Source of the DNA: Pseudarthrobacter sp. NS4 | GTDB lineage: Bacteria > Actinomycetota > Actinomycetes > Actinomycetales > Micrococcaceae | NCBI RefSeq assembly: GCF_024758005.1 | Contig: NZ_CP103288.1 | Coordinates: 4,216,001-4,280,000 of the forward strand | Length of the DNA stretch: 64,000 bases | Direction of reading: 5' to 3' | Shown here: in pieces, positions 38,250 to 47,781 of the stretch | Position numbering within the stretch: position 1 is the stretch's first letter | How the letters are laid out: each line of letters begins with the position of its first letter | The notes under the pieces: model-generated | Databases searched by the model: none | The model's input: the letters and a program-made list of their open reading frames with translations, nothing else | Told to the model about the DNA's origin: nothing | Program-made: the position numbers and the translations under genes

Positions 38250-41200
38250 CTACGCGGCAGGCGCCGGAACCCGAGGGGCAGGTGGTTCAGCCTTGGACCG
38301 CGGTTTGCCAAACCGCAGGTAGAGGGACGGCAGGATGAACAGGTTGAGCAGCGTCGAGGACGCCAGGCCGCCCACAATGACTACAGCCATGGGATGTTCG
38401 ATTTCGTGGCCGGGAATGGTGCCCATGAGGATCAACGGCACCAGTGCCAGCCCAGTGGCCAGCGTGGTCATCAGGATAGGCGAGAGCCGTTCCCCCGCGC
38501 CCCGGAGCACCAGTTCGGGCCCGAACTTTTCATTTTCATATTTCTCGAGGTGCTGGCAATGGCTGATCAGGAGGATGCCGTTGCGCGCCGCGATGCCCAG
38601 GACTGTCAGGAACCCTACGATCGAGCCGAGTGAGAGCACGCCGCCGCTCAGGTAGGCCGCGAGCATGCCCCCAACGAGTGCAACAGGAAGTGTGAACATG
38701 ATCAAGGCGGCCAACCGCCAGCTGCCGAATGACGCCTGGAGCAGCAGGAAAATGACCAGGAGGGCGCCCACCGCAAAGATCAGGAGCTGGCGGGTGGCAG
38801 CTTCACGTTCCGCGAACTCCCCAAGGATCTCAGCGTGGTAGCCCGCGGGGAAGTCCACCCCGGTCAGCCCTTGCTCAAGTTTGGCCACGAGGGCGCCCAG
38901 ATCACCATCCGATGCGGCATTGGCGCTGACGTCGATCCTGCGCGAATTGTTGTTCCGATCGATGACGCCGGGCGTTGCGTTGACGCTGACGTCTGCCACC
39001 TCGGCGAGCCGGACCGGCACTCCGGATGGAGTATCGATGGGCAGGTTCCCGATGCTGGTTACGTCTGAACGGGTCTCCGGAGGACTCCAGATACGGACGT
39101 CGAAGACCTTGCCTTCCCGCCATAGATCGCCCACTTCCTCACTGGCCACCATCGCTGCCGCGGCCCTCCGGACGTCGCCGGGCTTGACCCCATGGCGCTG
39201 GGCTGCCTCGAGGTTGACCTTGACGTCCACCTGCGGAATGTCCACCTGCAGCGATACGTGCTCCTCCACGGCTTCGTCGATACGTCCCATCACCTCTTCG
39301 ACTTCCTTGGCCAGCCCGCGCAGGGTTTCAAGATCGTCGCCGTATACCCGGACCACCACGGCGTCGCCTTCGCCTGTGAGGACCTCGCGGATCCGCTCCT
39401 TCAGGTAGGTCTGCACGTCGCGGTGTATCCCTGGGTAGCCGTCCACTACCTCCTGCACAGCGGCCAGGGTCTTGTCGTAGTCGGCCGAGGGATCCACGCT
39501 GATCCAGTTCTCGCCGAAGTTCACCCCAACTACCTCATCTGCGGCCAGCGCCTGGCCGATGTGGGCACCACAATTCAGCACCCCGTCCAACGCCAGCAGC
39601 TCTCTGCAGGCACGCTCGCTGATGCGGACCTCCTCGGCCAGGGAGGTGCCCGGTTGAGTCACCCAGTGCATGAGGAAGTCGCGTTCCTTGAACGACGGCA
39701 GCAGTGCCTGTCCCAGCAGCGGTGCCACCAGGACCCCGGAAAGAGTCAGCCCCGTGAAAGCCAGGTAGCCAGGTCCTGGGCGGCGGACCACCCGGGACAT
39801 CAGCCAGTGGTAGCCGCGCTTCAGGACCCGGACCAGCGGCGGGTCCCGCGGATCCAGCGGAGCCTTGCGCAGGAAAATGAGTGCAAGGGCTGGAGTGACT
39901 GTGAGTGCCACCAGCATGGAGGCAAAAACCGCCAACGTGTAGGCGCTGGCAAGTGGACGGAAAAAGGCCCCGGTGAGTCCTTCGAGGAAGAAGATCGGTA
40001 CCGCGGCCACCACGATGATGAGGGTGGCGTACACGATCGGTCCGCGGACCTCCATTGATGCTTCCAGGACAACTGACGCCGTGGACCGGCCGCTGCGGCT
40101 TTCGCGATGCTGCCTTAACCGTCGGATGATGTTTTCAATATCGATGATGGCGTCGTCCACCACCACGCCCACGGAAATGACCAGGCCGGCCAGCACCATG
40201 GTGTTCACGGTGCTGCCGGTCATCATAATGACCACGCCCGCCGTGATGAGGGATAAGGGGATGGCAATCAGGCTGATAAGGGCTGTGCGCCACTGGAACA
40301 GGAATGCCCCCAGCACCATCATGACCAGCACGATGCCCAGCAGCAGCGCCAGGCTCAGGTTTTCCAGCGACTGTTCTATGAAGGTCGCCGGCCTGAAAAG
40401 GGCGGTGTCGACGTCGATTCCCGACAATGCCGGAGCCATCTGCTCCAGCGCTTCCTCCACTCCCTTGGTCACCTCGAGGGTGTTGCCCCACGGCAGTTTC
40501 TCCACGATGAGCATCAGGCCTTCGCCGTCATTGATGACTGCGTCACCGATCAGGGGGTTGTGGTCCATCACGACGTCGGCCACGTCGCCCAGGCGCAGGG
40601 GGTTCCCGTCGCGTTCCCGGATAGGGATCTTGGCGAGGTCCTCAGGCGTGCGGATGGGCAGGACGTGCGAAATGCCGATGCGCTGGTTCGGAGTCTCCAC
40701 AACTCCGCCGGCGCCTACCACGTTGCCGGATGTGTGCTTGAGCAGTCCGGCGTGCATGGCGTCATTGGTAGTCGACATCACCTCCCTAAGGGACACATTT
40801 TCGGCCAGCAGCCGATCAGGCTTGACGCGTACCTGGAGCGTTTCCTTCCGTTCACCCCAGATGGCAACATTAGCCACGCCCGGGACGGAGAGCAGGTGGG
40901 CCCGCAGCTTGTAGTGGGTCAACATGGACATTTCGATCAGGCTGCGCTCCTCCGAGGACAAGCCGATCTTCATGACCCGGCTCGTGGAGGACAAGGGCTG
41001 CAGCATCACCGGTGGCGTGGCCCAGCTGGGCAGCGTCGGCGTGACCGTTGCGACTCTTTCCGAGACCAGCTGCCGCGCCTTCAGCAGATCAGTGCCCGGG
41101 TCGAAAATCATCAGGACCGAGGACAGCTGGGAAACAGACTTTGACCTTAGCTCGTCCAGCCCCTCCAAGCCGTTGAGCGCGTGCTCAAGCGGAACCGTGA

Positions 41201-41390
41201 CCAGCTCCTCGACTTCCGCCGCGGTCAAGCCCAGGGCGGCCGTCTGGATTTCCACCCGGGGCGGTGCGAACTCGGGAAACACGTCCACTGATGCTGAACT
41301 GATCTGGACAGCACCAACCATCATGATTCCGAGGGCCAGCGCTACCACCACCGAACGGAACTTGAGGCTGAAACCAATGAGCCTGCGCAT
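38250..41390 (-). CDS. RND efflux permease (AcrB/CusA class), relay residues intact
   Basis: This 1046-residue protein has the full RND layout: TM1, a large porter loop (about 35-340), TM2-6, a second loop (about 560-870) and TM8-12. In TM4 the motif VVVDDAIIDIEN keeps D412-D413 and E419, equivalent to the AcrB D407-D408 relay and E414. The start (VDVFPEFAPPRVEIQTAALGL) resembles the heavy-metal (CusA/CzcA) group. Such pumps normally span Gram-negative envelopes; in actinobacteria the usual RND proteins are MmpL. It is the last gene of the three-gene operon, six bases after the adaptor. Substrate unknown. Confidence 0.9.
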   Translation of the reverse strand: MRRLIGFSLKFRSVVVALALGIMMVGAVQISSASVDVFPEFAPPRVEIQTAALGLTAAEVEELVTVPLEHALNGLEGLDELRSKSVSQLSSVLMIFDPGTDLLKARQLVSERVATVTPTLPSWATPPVMLQPLSSTSRVMKIGLSSEERSLIEMSMLTHYKLRAHLLSVPGVANVAIWGERKETLQVRVKPDRLLAENVSLREVMSTTNDAMHAGLLKHTSGNVVGAGGVVETPNQRIGISHVLPIRTPEDLAKIPIRERDGNPLRLGDVADVVMDHNPLIGDAVINDGEGLMLIVEKLPWGNTLEVTKGVEEALEQMAPALSGIDVDTALFRPATFIEQSLENLSLALLLGIVLVMMVLGAFLFQWRTALISLIAIPLSLITAGVVIMMTGSTVNTMVLAGLVISVGVVVDDAIIDIENIIRRLRQHRESRSGRSTASVVLEASMEVRGPIVYATLIIVVAAVPIFFLEGLTGAFFRPLASAYTLAVFASMLVALTVTPALALIFLRKAPLDPRDPPLVRVLKRGYHWLMSRVVRRPGPGYLAFTGLTLSGVLVAPLLGQALLPSFKERDFLMHWVTQPGTSLAEEVRISERACRELLALDGVLNCGAHIGQALAADEVVGVNFGENWISVDPSADYDKTLAAVQEVVDGYPGIHRDVQTYLKERIREVLTGEGDAVVVRVYGDDLETLRGLAKEVEEVMGRIDEAVEEHVSLQVDIPQVDVKVNLEAAQRHGVKPGDVRRAAAAMVASEEVGDLWREGKVFDVRIWSPPETRSDVTSIGNLPIDTPSGVPVRLAEVADVSVNATPGVIDRNNNSRRIDVSANAASDGDLGALVAKLEQGLTGVDFPAGYHAEILGEFAEREAATRQLLIFAVGALLVIFLLLQASFGSWRLAALIMFTLPVALVGGMLAAYLSGGVLSLGSIVGFLTVLGIAARNGILLISHCQHLEKYENEKFGPELVLRGAGERLSPILMTTLATGLALVPLILMGTIPGHEIEHPMAVVIVGGLASSTLLNLFILPSLYLRFGKPRSKAEPPAPRVPAPAA

Positions 41391-41396
41391 GGCTGG

Positions 41397-41855
41397 TCAG
41401 TGCGCCGTATCCAGTTCAGCACCCAGAAGTTCGGCCGCCCCTACAGTCACGATTTTGGTTCCAGGTTGGGGTCCGCTTGCCAGCTTCACGGTCGGAGCCT
41501 CGATCCGTTCAACCGCTACGGGTGCCCGGACGAACACCAACGGCTCGGGGTTGGTGTAGACCCAGGTGCCGCCGCTCGCGTCGTATATCAGGGCCGAATA
41601 GGGAACCTGGAGTTTATCTTCAACCGTCTCCACCGCGCCTGTGGTGATCCCCAGCCGTTCGGCAGCTCTCCCGGTCAACGTGATGCGGCTGACTTCCTGC
41701 CCTTCAACCTCCTCAAGGGTGGCGGCTTCGACCCCTGTCGCGGCCGGAGCCGCCTCAGGCACTTCGCCGCACGCGGCCACAGGACCACAGACCAGGCAAG
41801 CCATGACCAGGACGCCGAACAGGCGGCGCTTCCAAGGCACGTACGCAGTCGTCAT
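41397..41855 (-). CDS. Miniature lipoprotein resembling the C-terminal domain of an RND adaptor
   Basis: This 152-residue lipoprotein has a signal with lipobox VAAC (cysteine 29). Residues about 70-145 resemble only the last two domains of a CusB/CzcB-type membrane-fusion protein. They include VPYSALIYDASGGTWVYTN, then VFVRAPVAVERI, and GPQPGTKIVTVGAAELLGAE, the usual final strand pair. The lipoyl and hairpin domains that reach an outer-membrane channel are missing, which suits a cell without an outer membrane. It overlaps the second permease gene by four bases (ATGA) and precedes the first permease by six bases. Confidence 0.8.
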   Translation of the reverse strand: MTTAYVPWKRRLFGVLVMACLVCGPVAACGEVPEAAPAATGVEAATLEEVEGQEVSRITLTGRAAERLGITTGAVETVEDKLQVPYSALIYDASGGTWVYTNPEPLVFVRAPVAVERIEAPTVKLASGPQPGTKIVTVGAAELLGAELDTAH

Positions 41856-44800
41856 GGCACTTCCGTTCTTTCAGCAAGCCCCGCAGCATCGGCGGGACCT
41901 TGTGGCTTCAGGGGATCCTCGTCCTCCGGTGTGCCGGTGCCAAACAGGATCAGGAGGGTTGGCAGGACAATCAGAACAAACAGCGCGTGCGTCACTAACC
42001 CGCCCCACACCACGATGGCCAGGGGCAGGATCGTTTCCCTGCCAACAGCTCCCCCGAGTACCACCAGGGGGATCAGGAATGCCGTGCTGACAACCGCAGC
42101 AATCACAAGCGGCACCAGCCGTTCCTGGGCTGCCTGCAAGATTGAGGAGCGCGAACCACCCCGCAGCTGGGCTTCCTCCCGCGCCTCCGCAGATACTGGA
42201 TTGCTGGTCATGACCGGGGTTTGGGCACGCCGGACCAGCAGGATGGAGTCCCGCACAGCCATTCCGAACAGCGCAACGAAGGCAAGGAGAGTCACCAGGG
42301 AGCTGATGCCGCCCGTGAGGATTGCGCCCAGAACGCCGCCTACAAGGGCGAGGGGCAGCGCCAGGAATACAACCAGTGCCACCCGCCAGCTTCCCAGCGC
42401 GGTCTGCAGGAGGACCAGGATGCCGATCAGTGCTGCTCCCGCGACGGTCCAGACGAGTTGCACAGTGCTCTGTTGCTCGGAGTACCGGGATGGCACCTGC
42501 GCGTGATATTCCATTGGGAAATCAAGGTTGGCCAGCCCGGCGTTGACATCTGATGTGATGTCTCCGACGGACCTGCCATCCACCTGGGCCACCACATCTA
42601 TGTGGCGGGAGGTGTCGGTGTGGGTGATAACCGACTCGTGTGGCGTTACCCGGACGTCGGCGACTTCACTGAGCCGCACATGGCCACCGTCCGGCTTGTC
42701 GATCAGCAACTCCTGGACACTTGTGAGGCTTGAACTGGTGGCCGGAGTACCCTTGACCACCACCTGGAACACTTTCTGCTGCTCGAAGAGGAAGCCCACG
42801 TCCACGCCCTGTAGCAGGGTGGCTGCTGCACGCCGCACATCGCCCGGTTTCACCCCGGCTTGCTGTGCCTTGTCCAGGTCAACTTCGATCTCTGCGATGG
42901 GTTGGAGCCGGGGAAGGGACAACTGCGGGTCAACCAAGCCGGCTGTGGAGGACATCATGTCCCTGACGTTTTCCGCGGTTTGGCGCAGGACCTGGGGATC
43001 CACCCCGAACACCCTGACCGAGAACTCATGTTGTGACCGGTTACGCTCCACGTCGAGCCGGTTTTGGCCGTAGGTAGCCACGCCGCCGCGGATCCCGGGG
43101 TAGCCTGCCACGACTTCATTGACCGCTTCGGTGACACTTGAGTAATCAGCGTCCGCTTCCATGGTGACCCAGAGTTCCCCCGAATTCGGCCCCACCACCC
43201 GGTCCGAGGTGATGGCGCGCCCCACGTGTCCGCCTACGTTGGCGACTCCCGGCAGGGTGGTCAATTCCTTGCTGGCAAGGGCCGATATCCGGCCCATCTC
43301 ACCGTTGGACGTTCCTGCCAGTCCATCCCACTGCACCAGCAGGATCCGGTCCTGAAGTGCAGTTACCGAGGGCTGGCCGGTGGCGAGCAGCGGTATACCG
43401 GCTGCGGCAGCCACTGCAAACAAAGCGGCTGCAGCCACCACCCACCGGGACTTGGCGGCGGACCTTTCAACCGCTTTCCGGGTCCCTTCCCTGATCTTGC
43501 CCGGCCATCGCGGCGGCTGCCCCTCGCCGGCCATGAACGTGAGGGCCAAAGCCGGGGTCAGGAGCCAGGCGATGAGCAGGGCGACGGCGAGTGCCAGCAG
43601 GAAGGACAGAACCAGGGGGACGAAAAGAGCCCGGTTTACCCCCGTCAGGAACAGCACGGGCAGCAGGACGAGCGCCATGGTAAGTCCGGCGAAGACAATT
43701 GCATTCCGGGTCTGCTGGAGGGCTGCGGTTATCAGTGCCAGCCTCGGCTCCGCCTTCACCCCGGACCCGCTCAAACCGTCCTCCGTGTTGCCCCTGTCCC
43801 TGCCGTCGACGGCCGCTGGCAGGCCGGAATCCGACGAAAGCTCCCGCCGTCGTCGCAGCCCATTCAGGTCGGTCACGAGGTCGGTCACAACCACAACCAA
43901 AGCCAGAACCAGTCCGGCAAAGACCAGAACATTCAGCCCGATTCCCACCACCGACAGCATGAGGAAAGCGGCCGCCGTGGACACTGCCAGGACAATCAAA
44001 CCCACAAGGGCCGTCCGCCAGGACTTGAACAAGAGTCCCAGGAGGAGGGCAGCCAACAACAGGCCGACAAGGAAGCCCGTTCCCAGGTTCTGCAACGCGG
44101 ACTCAAGGAAGGATGCAGGCCGGTAGACACTGGTGTCGACGTTGATTCCCGAAAGGCCTGGTTTCAAGTCCTCCAGTGCCGCTTCCAGCGCTGCCGTGAT
44201 CTCAGCCGTATTGGCCTCAGGAAACTTCTCGATGACCAGCATGAGGGCGGGGTCCTCGTCCACCACTGCATCGCCGATGAGCGGCTGGTGGTATTCCCGG
44301 ACTGTTGCCACATCGCCCAGTACCAGCGGCGGACCTGTCACGTTCTCGACGCTGACCTTCGCCAAGTCGCTGGGGGTGGTGATCGGCAGGACATGCTGGA
44401 TCCCAAGCCGCTGGTTCTCGGTCTCCAGGAAGCCGCCGGTTCCCGGTGTTGAGGCCTGGAGGAAAGTCAGAGGTGATACCCATACTGCGTTACCCGTTGT
44501 CCGGATTACCTGGTTGAGTGTTACCCCGCGGGCCTGGAGCGCTTGAGGGTCCACTTCCACCTGCATCTGCTGCTCACGCTGGCCCCAGATCGAAAGGTTT
44601 GCAACTCCGGGCACACCCATCAGGCGGGGCCTGATATTCCATCTGGCAAGGACGGACATGTCGATGAGCGGAACTTCCGACGACGACAGCCGGACCATCA
44701 TCACCCTGCTGGTGGAGGACTTCGGCTGCATCAGGACCGGAGGGGTGGAAACTTTGGGCAGTGAATGGGCCTGGACCAGGCGCTCGGCAACAAGTTGGCG

Positions 44801-45121
44801 CGCCCGGGGCAAGTCGGTGCCCGGTTCGAAAAGCAGCTGGATGGACGAAAGGCCTGGCACGGACTGCGACCGGATCTCGTCCAGATATGCGACGCCGTTA
44901 AGGAAGTCCACTTCCATGGGGGACGTGATGAATTGTTCAACTTCAAGCGCGGACAGTCCAAGGGCTTCGGTCTGGATCTCGACTTGGGCGGGTTCAAATT
45001 CAGGCAAGGCGTCCATGGAGGACCTGGGGTAGTACCAGATTCCCATCGCTATTATTGCTGCAGCCAACGCCAGGATCAGCAGGCGGAACTGGAAACTCCA
45101 TCGTGCAAATACACCGGTCAT
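41852..45121 (-). CDS. RND efflux permease (AcrB/CusA class), relay residues degenerate
   Basis: This 1089-residue protein has the same RND architecture as its operon partner. The start SSMDALPEFEPAQVEIQTEALGL (in part) is again of the CusA/CzcA group. In TM4 the relay motif reads VVTDLVTDLNG: the AcrB D407 position is T413, D408 is kept as D414, and E414 is replaced by N420. A Ser/Gly/Asp-rich insertion follows TM4 (about 430-460). The weak relay suggests it works beside the intact permease, as MdtB and MdtC do. GGAAG lies four to five bases before ATG 45121, which I prefer to the longer open frame. Confidence 0.88.
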   Translation of the reverse strand: MTGVFARWSFQFRLLILALAAAIIAMGIWYYPRSSMDALPEFEPAQVEIQTEALGLSALEVEQFITSPMEVDFLNGVAYLDEIRSQSVPGLSSIQLLFEPGTDLPRARQLVAERLVQAHSLPKVSTPPVLMQPKSSTSRVMMVRLSSSEVPLIDMSVLARWNIRPRLMGVPGVANLSIWGQREQQMQVEVDPQALQARGVTLNQVIRTTGNAVWVSPLTFLQASTPGTGGFLETENQRLGIQHVLPITTPSDLAKVSVENVTGPPLVLGDVATVREYHQPLIGDAVVDEDPALMLVIEKFPEANTAEITAALEAALEDLKPGLSGINVDTSVYRPASFLESALQNLGTGFLVGLLLAALLLGLLFKSWRTALVGLIVLAVSTAAAFLMLSVVGIGLNVLVFAGLVLALVVVVTDLVTDLNGLRRRRELSSDSGLPAAVDGRDRGNTEDGLSGSGVKAEPRLALITAALQQTRNAIVFAGLTMALVLLPVLFLTGVNRALFVPLVLSFLLALAVALLIAWLLTPALALTFMAGEGQPPRWPGKIREGTRKAVERSAAKSRWVVAAAALFAVAAAAGIPLLATGQPSVTALQDRILLVQWDGLAGTSNGEMGRISALASKELTTLPGVANVGGHVGRAITSDRVVGPNSGELWVTMEADADYSSVTEAVNEVVAGYPGIRGGVATYGQNRLDVERNRSQHEFSVRVFGVDPQVLRQTAENVRDMMSSTAGLVDPQLSLPRLQPIAEIEVDLDKAQQAGVKPGDVRRAAATLLQGVDVGFLFEQQKVFQVVVKGTPATSSSLTSVQELLIDKPDGGHVRLSEVADVRVTPHESVITHTDTSRHIDVVAQVDGRSVGDITSDVNAGLANLDFPMEYHAQVPSRYSEQQSTVQLVWTVAGAALIGILVLLQTALGSWRVALVVFLALPLALVGGVLGAILTGGISSLVTLLAFVALFGMAVRDSILLVRRAQTPVMTSNPVSAEAREEAQLRGGSRSSILQAAQERLVPLVIAAVVSTAFLIPLVVLGGAVGRETILPLAIVVWGGLVTHALFVLIVLPTLLILFGTGTPEDEDPLKPQGPADAAGLAERTEVP

Positions 45122-45227
45122 CGCTCTTCCAAGCTGCAGGTGGGGGCCTAGTAGGCAGTGATCTAAGCTTCCCGCCGTGCAGAACGGGCAAACAGTCCCC
45201 ACGTTAGTCAGGTGCACCCCCAAAATA

Positions 45228-45275
45228 GGGGGCGAGTAGGCCCGGAAAGGGGGCCTGTGACCTATACAAGGGGGC
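45228..45275. promoter_or_regulatory. Three GGGGGC boxes at exact 21-bp spacing
   Basis: GGGGGC occurs at 45228-45233, 45249-45254 and 45270-45275, each preceded by an A-rich tract (AAAATA, GGAAA, TACAA). The 21-bp period equals two helical turns, so proteins bound to all three would face the same side. They lie between the divergent RND operon and the LuxR-type gene, just upstream of a CATAAT -10 candidate at 45286-45291. Confidence 0.65.
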
Positions 45276-45324
45276 TTGGGCGGAGCATAATTCGCAATAA
45301 CGAGCTTGATGGTGACGCCTACTA

Positions 45325-45343
45325 ATACGCTTCCTGTGCGTAT
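45325..45343. promoter_or_regulatory. Inverted repeat ATACGC-N7-GCGTAT
   Basis: Perfect six-base arms (45325-45330 and 45338-45343) flank seven bases, between the -10 candidate and the start of the LuxR-type regulator. The size fits a dimer operator in the leader of that gene. Confidence 0.45.
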
Positions 45344-45368
45344 GGTCCGGGTGATTGGGGATATGGCA

Positions 45369-46040
45369 ATGACCGCAGAAGCTCTTGCCGAGGGAGCCCG
45401 CACGAGTGTCCTGGTCATCGACGACCACACCTCGTTTGCAGAACTGCTGACGTTGGCGCTGGACCGCGAACCCGACCTTCAGGGACTGGGTTTTGCCAGG
45501 AACGCCGCGGTAGGCGTGCGGATGTGCCGCGCCCTTCAGCCGGATGTGGTGGTCATGGGCGGCGGCCAGCGGGAGGACCTGGGGCCGGCGATTGCTGCAG
45601 AAATCGTTGCTGCTGTGCCGGGAACACGAGTGGTGATGTTGGCCAACCAGCCGACGAGGCAGGGCCTGGCGCAGGCCGCCGCGGCCGGTGCTTCCGCCTT
45701 TCTGGCCAAGGACACGCCCCTGACCGCGCTCCTTGGTACGGTGCGGCATTCCCACCCCGGGATAATCGAGGTTGACCCGCAGATTCTGGCGGCCTTCGCA
45801 GAGCAGGTCCAGCCGCCTGTCCAGGTGCCAGCCGTGCCATTGCTGACCAAGCGGCAGATGGACGTGCTGCGCCTGATGGCGGAGGGTAAGGACGTTCGAT
45901 CGAATGCGAAGACCCTGGGGATCTCCCAGAACACCTGCCGTGGCTATGTGAAGGCCATCCACGCCCGGCTGGGAGTCCACTCGCAACTCGAAGCAGTAGT
46001 GATTGCCCGCCGGTTGGGCCTTCTGGCCCCCGGCCGATAA
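45369..46040 (+). CDS. Orphan LuxR-type regulator with degenerate receiver domain
   Basis: This 223-residue protein has an N-terminal receiver-like domain (about 12-130) and a C-terminal LuxR/FixJ helix-turn-helix (about 157-218: LTKRQMDVLRLMAEGK, then NAKTLGISQNTCRGYVKAI). The acidic pair D18-D19 and lysine K114 are kept, but the phospho-acceptor position in PDVVVMGGG is glycine 64, and the switch Thr/Ser is alanine 92. It cannot be phosphorylated normally. No histidine kinase is nearby. It is divergent from the RND operon and probably controls it (inference). The start ATG 45369 follows GGGG by eight bases; 45363 is also possible. Confidence 0.82.
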   Translation: MTAEALAEGARTSVLVIDDHTSFAELLTLALDREPDLQGLGFARNAAVGVRMCRALQPDVVVMGGGQREDLGPAIAAEIVAAVPGTRVVMLANQPTRQGLAQAAAAGASAFLAKDTPLTALLGTVRHSHPGIIEVDPQILAAFAEQVQPPVQVPAVPLLTKRQMDVLRLMAEGKDVRSNAKTLGISQNTCRGYVKAIHARLGVHSQLEAVVIARRLGLLAPGR

Positions 46041-46106: not shown

Positions 46107-46571
46107 GTGGCTGTGCAGAAACTGGACGGTACAGACAAGCGCATCCTGAAGGCCTTGGACGACGACCCGCGCATTCCCATCATGGTGCTGGCCCAGCGAT
46201 TGGGGTTGGCACGCGGAACAGTGCAGTCACGGCTGGAGCGGATGACGGCGTCAGGCGCCCTCCGGCCCAACAGCAGCAGGGTGCTTCCCGCCGCACTGGG
46301 ACGCGGTGTGGCAGCTTCCGTCAGCGCCGAACTGGACCAGAGCCATCTCAACGAGGCCATTGCCGCCCTCCGGAAGATTCCGGAGGTCCTCGAATGCCAT
46401 GCGCCGGCCGGGGACACCGACCTCCTGATACGGGTAGTAGCCGCCAGCCCGGATGATCTCTACCGCGTCTCGGAGGAAATCAGGCTTTGCCCGGGCATTG
46501 TCCGTACTTCCACCAGCATGTTCCTCCGTGAAGTTATTCCCTACCGCACCACCGGGCTGCTTGACGGCTGA
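46107..46571 (+). CDS. Lrp/AsnC-family transcriptional regulator
   Basis: This 154-residue regulator has an N-terminal helix-turn-helix (about 5-60: LDGTDKRILKALDDDPRIPI, with LAQRLGLARGTVQSRLERM as recognition part). A C-terminal RAM/ACT-like ligand domain follows (about 70-145). GGAGG lies six bases before the GTG start. It converges with a second Lrp gene; the stop codons abut. Lrp proteins sense amino acids and form octamers. Its target is not evident. Confidence 0.88.
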   Translation: MAVQKLDGTDKRILKALDDDPRIPIMVLAQRLGLARGTVQSRLERMTASGALRPNSSRVLPAALGRGVAASVSAELDQSHLNEAIAALRKIPEVLECHAPAGDTDLLIRVVAASPDDLYRVSEEIRLCPGIVRTSTSMFLREVIPYRTTGLLDG

Positions 46572-47027
46572 CTAGACGGGCGGGCCCACGTTCGACTTCA
46601 GGTTCTTCATCACCAGTGTGGACGTCAGGCGTTCCACCCCGGGCAGGGACGTCAGCTCGGCGTCGTAGAAGCGCTGGTAGGACGGCAGGTCCTCTGAGAT
46701 GACCTTCAGCAGGTAGTCCGGCGAGCCGAACAGCCGCTGCGCCTCCACGATGTTGGGATGGTCCGTCACCCGGTTCTCGAAGATCTCCATGGTGGGCCTG
46801 TCCACCTGCCGGAGCGTGACGAACACAATGGCCTCAAAACCCAAGCCCACGGCCGCGGGGTCGATGTCCGCTTTGTACCCGCGGATCACCCCTGACTGTT
46901 CCAGGTCGCGCAGCCGCCGATGGCAAGGGGCCACCGTCAGGCCCACCTTGGCAGCGAGAGCAGTGGCAGTCATCCGGCCGTCTTCTTTGAGGTAGCGCAA
47001 GATATTTCTATCAATATGGTCAAGCAC
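46572..47027 (-). CDS. Lrp/AsnC-family regulator, divergent from a LysE exporter
   Basis: This 151-residue protein starts LDHIDRNILRYLKEDGRMTATALAAKVGLT (in part), the Lrp helix-turn-helix, followed by the RAM domain with VEAQRLFGSPDYLLKVI. The start is GTG with AGGA seven bases upstream. It is divergently transcribed from the LysE-type exporter at 47134, the classical arrangement in which an Lrp-type protein activates the amino-acid exporter (as LysG or BrnQ-type systems do). The A/T palindrome ATATT-N6-AATAT (47002-47017) inside its first codons may be a binding site. Confidence 0.88.
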   Translation of the reverse strand: MLDHIDRNILRYLKEDGRMTATALAAKVGLTVAPCHRRLRDLEQSGVIRGYKADIDPAAVGLGFEAIVFVTLRQVDRPTMEIFENRVTDHPNIVEAQRLFGSPDYLLKVISEDLPSYQRFYDAELTSLPGVERLTSTLVMKNLKSNVGPPV

Positions 47028-47133
47028 GCAATAATCCTACTGCCATTGCAGCAGGGCGGGCGAAAAAGGGACAGCACTTCCCGGCTGAAAGTCCCTAAGG
47101 TTTCTCCTGAGACATCCGTTGACAGGAGAACCC

Positions 47134-47781
47134 ATGAATCCGGAGCTGTTCCTGGCCTTCGTGCTGGTAGCCGCCGCCCTGGCCTGCACGCCGGGCGTGG
47201 ACTGGGCATACTCCATCACGGCCGGTCTTCGGCAGCGCAGCTTCGTCCCGGCGGTGGCAGGGCTCTGCGGCGGCTACGTCCTCCATACCGTCCTGCTGGT
47301 GGCCGGCCTGGCCGCCGTGCTGACCGGAATGCCGCATGTCCTGGCGTGGATCACGCTGGCCGGCGCCGGCTACCTGATGTGGCTGGGCGTCAGCACGCTC
47401 CGCTCCTGGCGCGGCGCCTCCTTCAGCGTGGCAGACGCCGCGGGAGGCCGTGACGCCACGCAGCTTCGCACATTCCTGCAGGGCATGGGCACCAGCGGGA
47501 TCAATCCCAAAGGCCTGCTGTTCTACGTGGCGCTGATCCCGCAGTTCGTCAGCGCGGAGGCATCCTTGCCGGTACCTGTTCAGTCCGGCCTCCTGGGCAT
47601 GACATTCGTGGCCCTGGCCGGCGCGGTCTACACTGCCGTCGCGCTGCTCTCGCGCACCCTGCTGCAAAGCCGGCCGGGGGCAGCGCGCGCTGTCACCTTT
47701 GCCAGCGGCATCATCATGGTGGTCCTGGGTGTGGTCCTGGTCAGCGAGCAGGTTCTGCCGCTGCTGGCCCTGGCGGATTAG
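47134..47781 (+). CDS. LysE/RhtB-family amino-acid exporter
   Basis: This 215-residue membrane protein has six hydrophobic segments and the RhtB/LysE signature CTPGVDWAYSITAGLRQR near residues 20-37 (the usual form is PGP). GMGTSGINPKGLLFYVALIPQF (about 118-139, quoted in part) is the second family block. It exports amino acids or related compounds. AGGAG lies five bases before the ATG. Its substrate would be set by the divergent Lrp regulator, but neither reveals it. The stop codon overlaps that of the convergent gene at 47778. Confidence 0.87.
   Translation: MNPELFLAFVLVAAALACTPGVDWAYSITAGLRQRSFVPAVAGLCGGYVLHTVLLVAGLAAVLTGMPHVLAWITLAGAGYLMWLGVSTLRSWRGASFSVADAAGGRDATQLRTFLQGMGTSGINPKGLLFYVALIPQFVSAEASLPVPVQSGLLGMTFVALAGAVYTAVALLSRTLLQSRPGAARAVTFASGIIMVVLGVVLVSEQVLPLLALAD

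Follow-up and report, generated by a model that had tools for sequence, protein, structure and literature searches.

The 64,000-nucleotide window analyzed here, from Pseudarthrobacter sp. NS4 (contig NZ_CP103288.1, positions 4,216,001 to 4,280,000), encodes two resistance-nodulation-division (RND) permeases with a small lipoprotein between them. All three genes lie on the minus strand and form one operon, transcribed in the order permease B (41852..45121, 1089 aa), mini-adaptor (41397..41855, 152 aa), and permease A (38250..41390, 1046 aa). The stop of permease B and the start of the mini-adaptor share 4 nt (ATGA), and permease A starts a few bases past the mini-adaptor stop. Both permeases match PF00873 (ACR_tran) over their full length, at 720 bits for A and 476 bits for B against a curated cut-off of 28. 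A LuxR-type regulator gene (45363..46040, plus strand) is divergent from the operon. The intergenic region between them (45122..45362, no strand) is presumed to be the control region on the basis of its position. These matches and coordinates confirm the arrangement described in an earlier sequence-only reading of this DNA. The start of permease B was taken at 45121, on the basis of sequence and alignment, and not at the mechanical open reading frame (ORF) start of 45430; for the regulator, 45363 was preferred over 45306.

How three RND protomers share proton-driven work is a central question, and this operon, carried by Arthrobacter and some other actinobacteria, may show whether every part must be driven. 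The host genome is a single contig of 4,443,991 bases. Outside the operon, it contains a solo permease that matches PF00873 over its full length, and a partial match that is barely above the cut-off.

Co-inheritance and origin of the permease pair

A scan of named genomes with B returned 18 loci, 17 of them actinobacterial (Arthrobacter, Pseudarthrobacter, Cryobacterium, Naasia); a distant relative in Massilia (L040, 21% identity) was excluded from the counts. The nearest named relative of B is in a Pseudarthrobacter assembly (95% over 607 aligned residues), followed by Arthrobacter cheniae and Arthrobacter sp. AFG7.2 (88%). All 16 named loci of sufficient length have the order B-adaptor-A. 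The coordinates imply the 4-nt overlap between B and the adaptor in 15 of these; the automatic start choice differed in the sixteenth (L027). At the level of the order, orthologues of B (at least 50% identity) occur in 3 of 248 genomes, in four copies, and six more genomes match at 25–27% only. Orthologues of A (68–100%) are found in the same three genomes, also in four copies, and the next homologues of A fall to about 30%. In a sample of the phylum, the A family was detected at E ≤ 1e-110 in 17 of 396 genomes. Both permeases are on one contig in 15 of the 19 stretches fetched from the order and phylum samples, and the order is B-adaptor-A in all 15; contig ends cut the locus in the other four. 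Two of the 15 (L094, L096) repeat the named loci L037 and L027 and were left out of residue counts.

In the genus sample, 53 of 150 genomes match at E ≤ 1e-150, including one with an A-like match only (G788) and two with a B fragment only (G673, G718). The three-gene order is present in 57 of 64 fetched stretches. A script recognized 56 of these, including L186, in which the permeases are truncated; L142 was added after setting aside a spurious overlapping ORF. Of the other stretches, three are damaged (L172, L182, L185), two contain a B fragment only (L183, L184), and L187 and L188 are a single set divided between two contigs. One contig-end fragment (G687) lies outside the fetched stretches. 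Loci in which contig ends cut A or B (L026, L109–L112, L187, L188) are outside the order counts; L026 and L110 (for B) and L109 and L111 (for A) are still in the residue counts. Genus residue counts are without L142 and the damaged loci, except L186 (TM4 missing). In L183 and L184, the first 426 residues of B remain, ending just past TM4, and the adaptor and A are absent from the 10.5 kb stretch.

Three further class-level samples (3/39, 4/66, and 5/27 genomes) yielded fragments of a second set in G403 but no further intact pair. When plasmid records were searched with B, there were 28 matches, all below 60% identity and none bearing an actinobacterial genus name. Distances of A and B covary over 21 loci, with a Pearson r of 0.86 that was reached in 0 of 2000 label permutations. 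The permease pair is co-inherited across relatives. The survey proposed by the sequence-only reading thus recovered the same three-gene order in the named, order, phylum, and genus samples, and the failure of co-inheritance that would have spoken against that reading was not observed.

A tree was built from 54 rows, among them 22 of A, 22 of B, and 9 single permeases of Gram-negative bacteria. Each of these three groups is split off by a branch with support of 100, with A and B as sisters. When E. coli proteins were included, A-B and MdtB-MdtC formed two separate sister pairs on branches of 99–100. Both trees were made by a quick method and carried long-branch warnings, for the solo permease with the single permease of locus L121, and for AcrB and CusA; these touch outgroups rather than the A-B split. 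A and B originate from a single duplication that is independent of MdtB/MdtC. B evolves faster than A, with a mean root-to-tip distance of 1.24 vs 0.73.

The Gram-negative homologues (Methylomonas, Hymenobacter, Sphingobium) come from plasmids only, with 9 loci read out of 204 matching records. They resemble A in sequence (50–55% identity) and keep the eight relay positions described below, but differ in having no tandem partner, an adaptor of 314–419 aa, a TolC gene nearby, and regulator and/or kinase genes nearby. A tandem second permease was not found in the nine plasmid loci examined; L121 does carry a further RND gene, on the opposite strand at a distance of about 3 kb. A TolC-family gene lies inside the stretch in eight of the nine, and in all nine the protein preceding the permease is matched by a profile of the mini-adaptor. 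Metal-related neighbours (arsenic, mercury, chromate, ArsR, heavy-metal sensor) are present in five of nine, which counts only as a hint because genes of this kind abound on plasmids.

Relay residues and domain-wise conservation

Relay positions were equated by alignment to E. coli sequences. AcrB D407, D408, E414, N415, K940, N941, R971, and T978 correspond to D412, D413, E419, N420, R936, N937, R968, and T975 in A, and to T413, D414, N420, G421, R957, D958, R1001, and A1008 in B; the TM4 residues named in the sequence-only reading (D412-D413 and E419; T413, D414, and N420) are therefore correct. In A, all eight states are invariant in 32/32 sequences, as they are in the single Gram-negative homologues (9/9). 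The relay of A is likewise unchanged in a replicate of 48 further genus loci that had not been used before.

B presents a different picture. Among 19 Micrococcales sequences, the position of D407 holds G in 14 and T in five, and E414 is lost in all 19; D408 is kept in 19/19, and the arginine at K940 and R971 in 18/18 with data. The genus replicate agrees in 48/48 loci on each count, with D407 replaced by G, E414 lost, and D408, the arginine at K940, and R971 kept. Since the B of the window retains D414, R957, and R1001 at these three positions, its relay is stripped rather than erased. The claim that one permease carries the relay hence holds for the complete set in A and for the loss of D407 and E414 in Micrococcales B, but not for the triad that B keeps. 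Similarly, relay loss was confined to the second permease as anticipated, but strict conservation of T and N at the lost positions was rejected because the states vary: E414 is replaced in B by Q, N, H, Y, S, T, or A, and D407 by G or T. A general compensating swap, in which the loss of D407 is balanced by a change of N941 to D, was also rejected, as it occurs in 17 of the 18 first Micrococcales sequences but in only 3 of the 48 further loci. Judging from the alignments, it appears to mark the window's sublineage together with some relatives.

Conservation was then compared by domain, using what we take to be the AcrB subdomain borders. In six Micrococcales loci, the ratio of B identity to A identity is 0.94–1.23 for PN1, PN2, DN, and DC and 0.89 for PC2, but 0.60–0.62 for the membrane domain and 0.61 for PC1. 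The 48 further loci gave 0.87–1.09 for PN1, PN2, DN, DC, and PC2, 0.64–0.65 for the membrane domain, and 0.80 for PC1. Ten loci outside the Micrococcales follow the same trend more weakly (membrane ratio 0.73–0.74). Across TM2–6 and TM8–12 in 58 loci, 191 of 339 columns are invariant in A and 27 in B, and those of B include D408, the arginine at K940, and R971. With columns treated as exchangeable, the hypergeometric chance that at least three of the four charged relay columns fall among the 27 is about 0.002. B surpasses A in invariant columns (35/92 vs 21/92) in DN, the subdomain that forms the funnel between protomers in AcrB. B has thus kept the parts that build a trimer and relaxed the engine, with the exception of the residual triad.

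B is under purifying selection. Its dN/dS (Nei-Gojobori) is 0.10–0.18 over nine pairs, compared with 0.05–0.14 for A (eight pairs) and 0.09–0.33 for the adaptor (eight pairs). Together with the clade-wide fixation, these values lead us to reject the view that the change in B is isolated decay.

The mini-adaptor and a proposed division of labour

The mini-adaptor has a lipobox-like V-A-A-C motif. The 28 mini-adaptors collected align across one small domain, with the lipobox cysteine in at least 90% (L104 is without it). Their profile matches full adaptors in two pieces, N-terminal and C-terminal, with the middle missing; in the adaptor of L117, these are residues 19–91 (E 5e-9) and 333–403 (E 4e-25). 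In CusB, the C-terminal piece is found at 324–381 (E 1e-4) and the N-terminal piece at 80–102 with E 0.3 only, and AcrA is matched weakly. Conversely, 21 of the 28 match TIGR01730 at E ≤ 0.01, but the match does not extend over the full model (21 bits vs a cut-off of 94.9; positions 249–313 of 322). Scores for curated adaptor models fall below their cut-offs, and solved adaptors match weakly (best E 0.016). By these profile matches, the mini-adaptor is the membrane-proximal, permease-contacting domain of an RND membrane fusion protein such as CusB or AcrA, without the middle of the full adaptor. The missing middle presumably comprises the hairpin, lipoyl, and barrel parts. This upholds the earlier suggestion of a shortened adaptor and corrects its detail, as C-terminal domains alone had been proposed. 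At about 150 residues, the adaptor isolates the domain that touches the permease. No second adaptor copy was found in the host genome, where the best other matches have E 0.2 and 0.4.

Two observations concern additional envelope components. Immediately upstream of B in L099 (L099:9446-10330) is another domain resembling the mini-adaptor, so each permease of this locus may have its own. Downstream of A, 7 of 23 clustered loci encode members of a conserved lipoprotein-like family, about 240–320 aa in length (L027:13876-14796, L099:1665-2564, L100:8984-9904, L103:9725-10687, L106:1566-2471, L107:1156-2064, L108:10863-11576). Two members scanned (L027, L107) had no Pfam match; the family is a possible fourth component.

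On balance, we favour the interpretation that the three genes specify a single envelope efflux pump. Its membrane part would be a trimer mixed from A and B, with A proton-driven and B a structural follower that has a residual triad. We infer the mixed trimer, the division of labour, and the direction and kind of transport from sequence. A would be the driven subunit, as it has the full two-carboxylate relay, a conserved membrane domain, and conserved substrate-side residues (H575, E669). B, its sister, would now mainly build the periplasmic pore and funnel, and having shed D407 and E414 would be in effect a natural D407 mutant. Its D408/R(K940)/R971 triad is probably a salt-bridge switch that follows the movements of A, or a one-proton relay; B may not be wholly unable to handle protons. 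The lipoprotein would be the permease-contacting adaptor domain freed of the parts that reach an outer-membrane channel.

The closest precedent is MdtB/MdtC of MdtABC, and MuxBC, in which two sister permeases likewise arose by one tandem duplication and share an operon. In addition to the separate duplication, these differ in that E. coli MdtB and MdtC both keep the eight relay states, which B does not. MdtABC also has a full adaptor, MdtA (415 aa), with its gene before the pair and not between, and as a Gram-negative system works with an outer-membrane channel. According to two reviews, MdtB and MdtC assemble as a B2C trimer to which the two relays contribute unequally: mutations in the relay of MdtB hurt more than those in MdtC, and substrate binds MdtC (PMC4338810, PMC10924465). 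The Arthrobacter pair looks like this MdtB2C idea taken further, with A driving and B shaping the pore and following. A survey of 6205 Gram-negative permeases located tandem pairs in HAE-1 Clade B alone and did not include Gram-positives (PMC10872679), so that a second origin of tandem pairs would be outside its view. Our literature search on Gram-positive, actinobacterial, and Arthrobacter RND pumps found no paper on an actinobacterial two-permease RND operon, a weak negative given that most subscription journals were outside its coverage.

Several observations weigh against this interpretation. Outside the Micrococcales, B keeps D407 in 12 of 13 sequences (N in L103) and D408 in 12 of 13 (E in L104). 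The division of labour therefore cannot rest on relay loss across the family, and the loss of D407 is clade-wide, not family-wide. The alignments indicate that E414 erodes widely, being changed in 10 of these 13 and kept in three, and that D407 was lost by the Micrococcales clade and, separately, by L103. The invariance of the triad in Micrococcales B argues against an inert membrane domain. When one protomer of a linked AcrB trimer is disabled, most of the activity is reportedly lost (PMC3925222), which implies that the AcrB cycle would not tolerate a partner like B. Finally, the six damaged genus loci include one with A intact and B broken (L182) and one with B intact and adaptor and A broken (L172).

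The same evidence bears on three alternatives. In the first of these, which we regard as rather doubtful, the trimer is mixed but B remains proton-coupled through a one-carboxylate relay (D408 with R940 and R971, joined in the window lineage by D958 at the N941 position), so that all protomers are driven and only proton numbers differ. The triad is invariant in 58 Micrococcales B, against 27 of 339 membrane columns overall, and D958 of the window stands at the position of AcrB N941, reported as the acceptor of a K940 hydrogen bond in the O state (PMC4359379). CusA also has a single aspartate at the relay pair (D405, A406). However, this is the aspartate that B lost, the D958 swap is a sublineage trait, and AcrB D407N, for which loading of one proton is predicted, is inactive (PMC4359379). 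A model in which each permease makes its own homotrimer for a task of its own, with nothing but co-transcription in common, is quite unlikely. Both match RND permeases over their full length, and RND pumps are mostly homotrimers (PMC8277102), but the pair co-occurs with a single mini-adaptor gene between its members. B is about as conserved as A in pore and funnel (ratios 0.87–1.23) and not in the membrane domain (0.60–0.65), and a B homotrimer would lack D407 in every protomer. Since AcrB D407A and D407N are reported as inactive (PMC3925222, PMC4359379), such a trimer should not pump in the manner of AcrB.

It is highly improbable that B is a duplicate in decay, retained by chance or through the structure of the operon. 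Its faster evolution, the erosion of relay residues in several lineages, and the damaged genus loci would fit, but its dN/dS, the 35 invariant DN columns across 58 loci, and its persistence in distant families of the phylum would not. In addition, A is broken, truncated, or missing along with B in four of the six damaged loci. The sequence-only reading had named isolated decay of a normally acidic B as a result that would count against it; the clade-wide change under purifying selection speaks against decay, whereas the retention of D407 in most B outside the Micrococcales shows that part of that concern was justified.

A bolder reading, somewhat less likely than not, is that natural evolution has produced a rotary RND pump whose one type of protomer has given up standard proton translocation and serves as a periplasmic scaffold and follower. 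If so, an RND pump would not need three equivalent proton strokes and could work in a monoderm with the membrane-proximal adaptor domain alone. Such an asymmetric pump seemingly evolved stepwise, by duplication and then loss of relay residues in one partner. Intermediates are still alive, as B outside the Micrococcales mostly has D407 with E414 changed, which makes the protomer question testable by simple gene removals.

Substrate-side residues, regulator, and neighbouring genes

The best NCBIfam and PDB matches of A are TIGR00914 and ZneA, of the HME group (CusA/CzcA/ZneA). Scores for TIGR00914 are below its cut-off of 701.45 for both A (563.3) and B (325.6), and A differs from this group in having R instead of E939 and D-D instead of D-A. 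At the metal-binding methionine triad of CusA, which we take to be M573, M623, and M672, A has H575, F625, and E669 and B has Q597, S647, and V691. A copper pump is therefore not supported by this triad. H575 and E669 are each conserved in 32/32 and 48/48 A sequences, residue 625 is F or A, and B varies at these positions.

The divergent regulator matches PF00072 and PF00196. By alignment, its receiver has glycine in place of the phosphorylated aspartate, as in L026 and L024; L023 and L036 have serine. The acidic pair is retained, as is the lysine in the window. The earlier description of the regulator as unphosphorylatable thus fits the window and five of the six proteins in hand (the window included), but L025 retains aspartate. 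The protein resembles a response regulator that has given up phosphorylation in recent evolution. It is found beside B in 5 of 17 named loci, all close relatives of the window, and canonical receivers are present near some distant loci (L102, L107, L108). A scan of the locus for promoters and terminators found nothing above shuffles; one sigma-70-like match in the intergenic region (45263-45291, plus strand) was within their range.

In the B of the window lineage (window, L023, L024, L025, L036), there are extra residues at about 424–468 and 967–995. They follow TM4 and TM10, at positions that are repeat-symmetric; other aligned B sequences are without them or have shorter stretches. The solo RND permease of the host genome (L005:6870-10100), presumably SwrC-like, has an intact D-D relay motif. 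Adjoining the LuxR-type gene in the window (46107-47781) are two regulator genes on opposite strands that we take to be Lrp/AsnC-like, followed by an exporter gene, presumably LysE-like, at 47119-47781.

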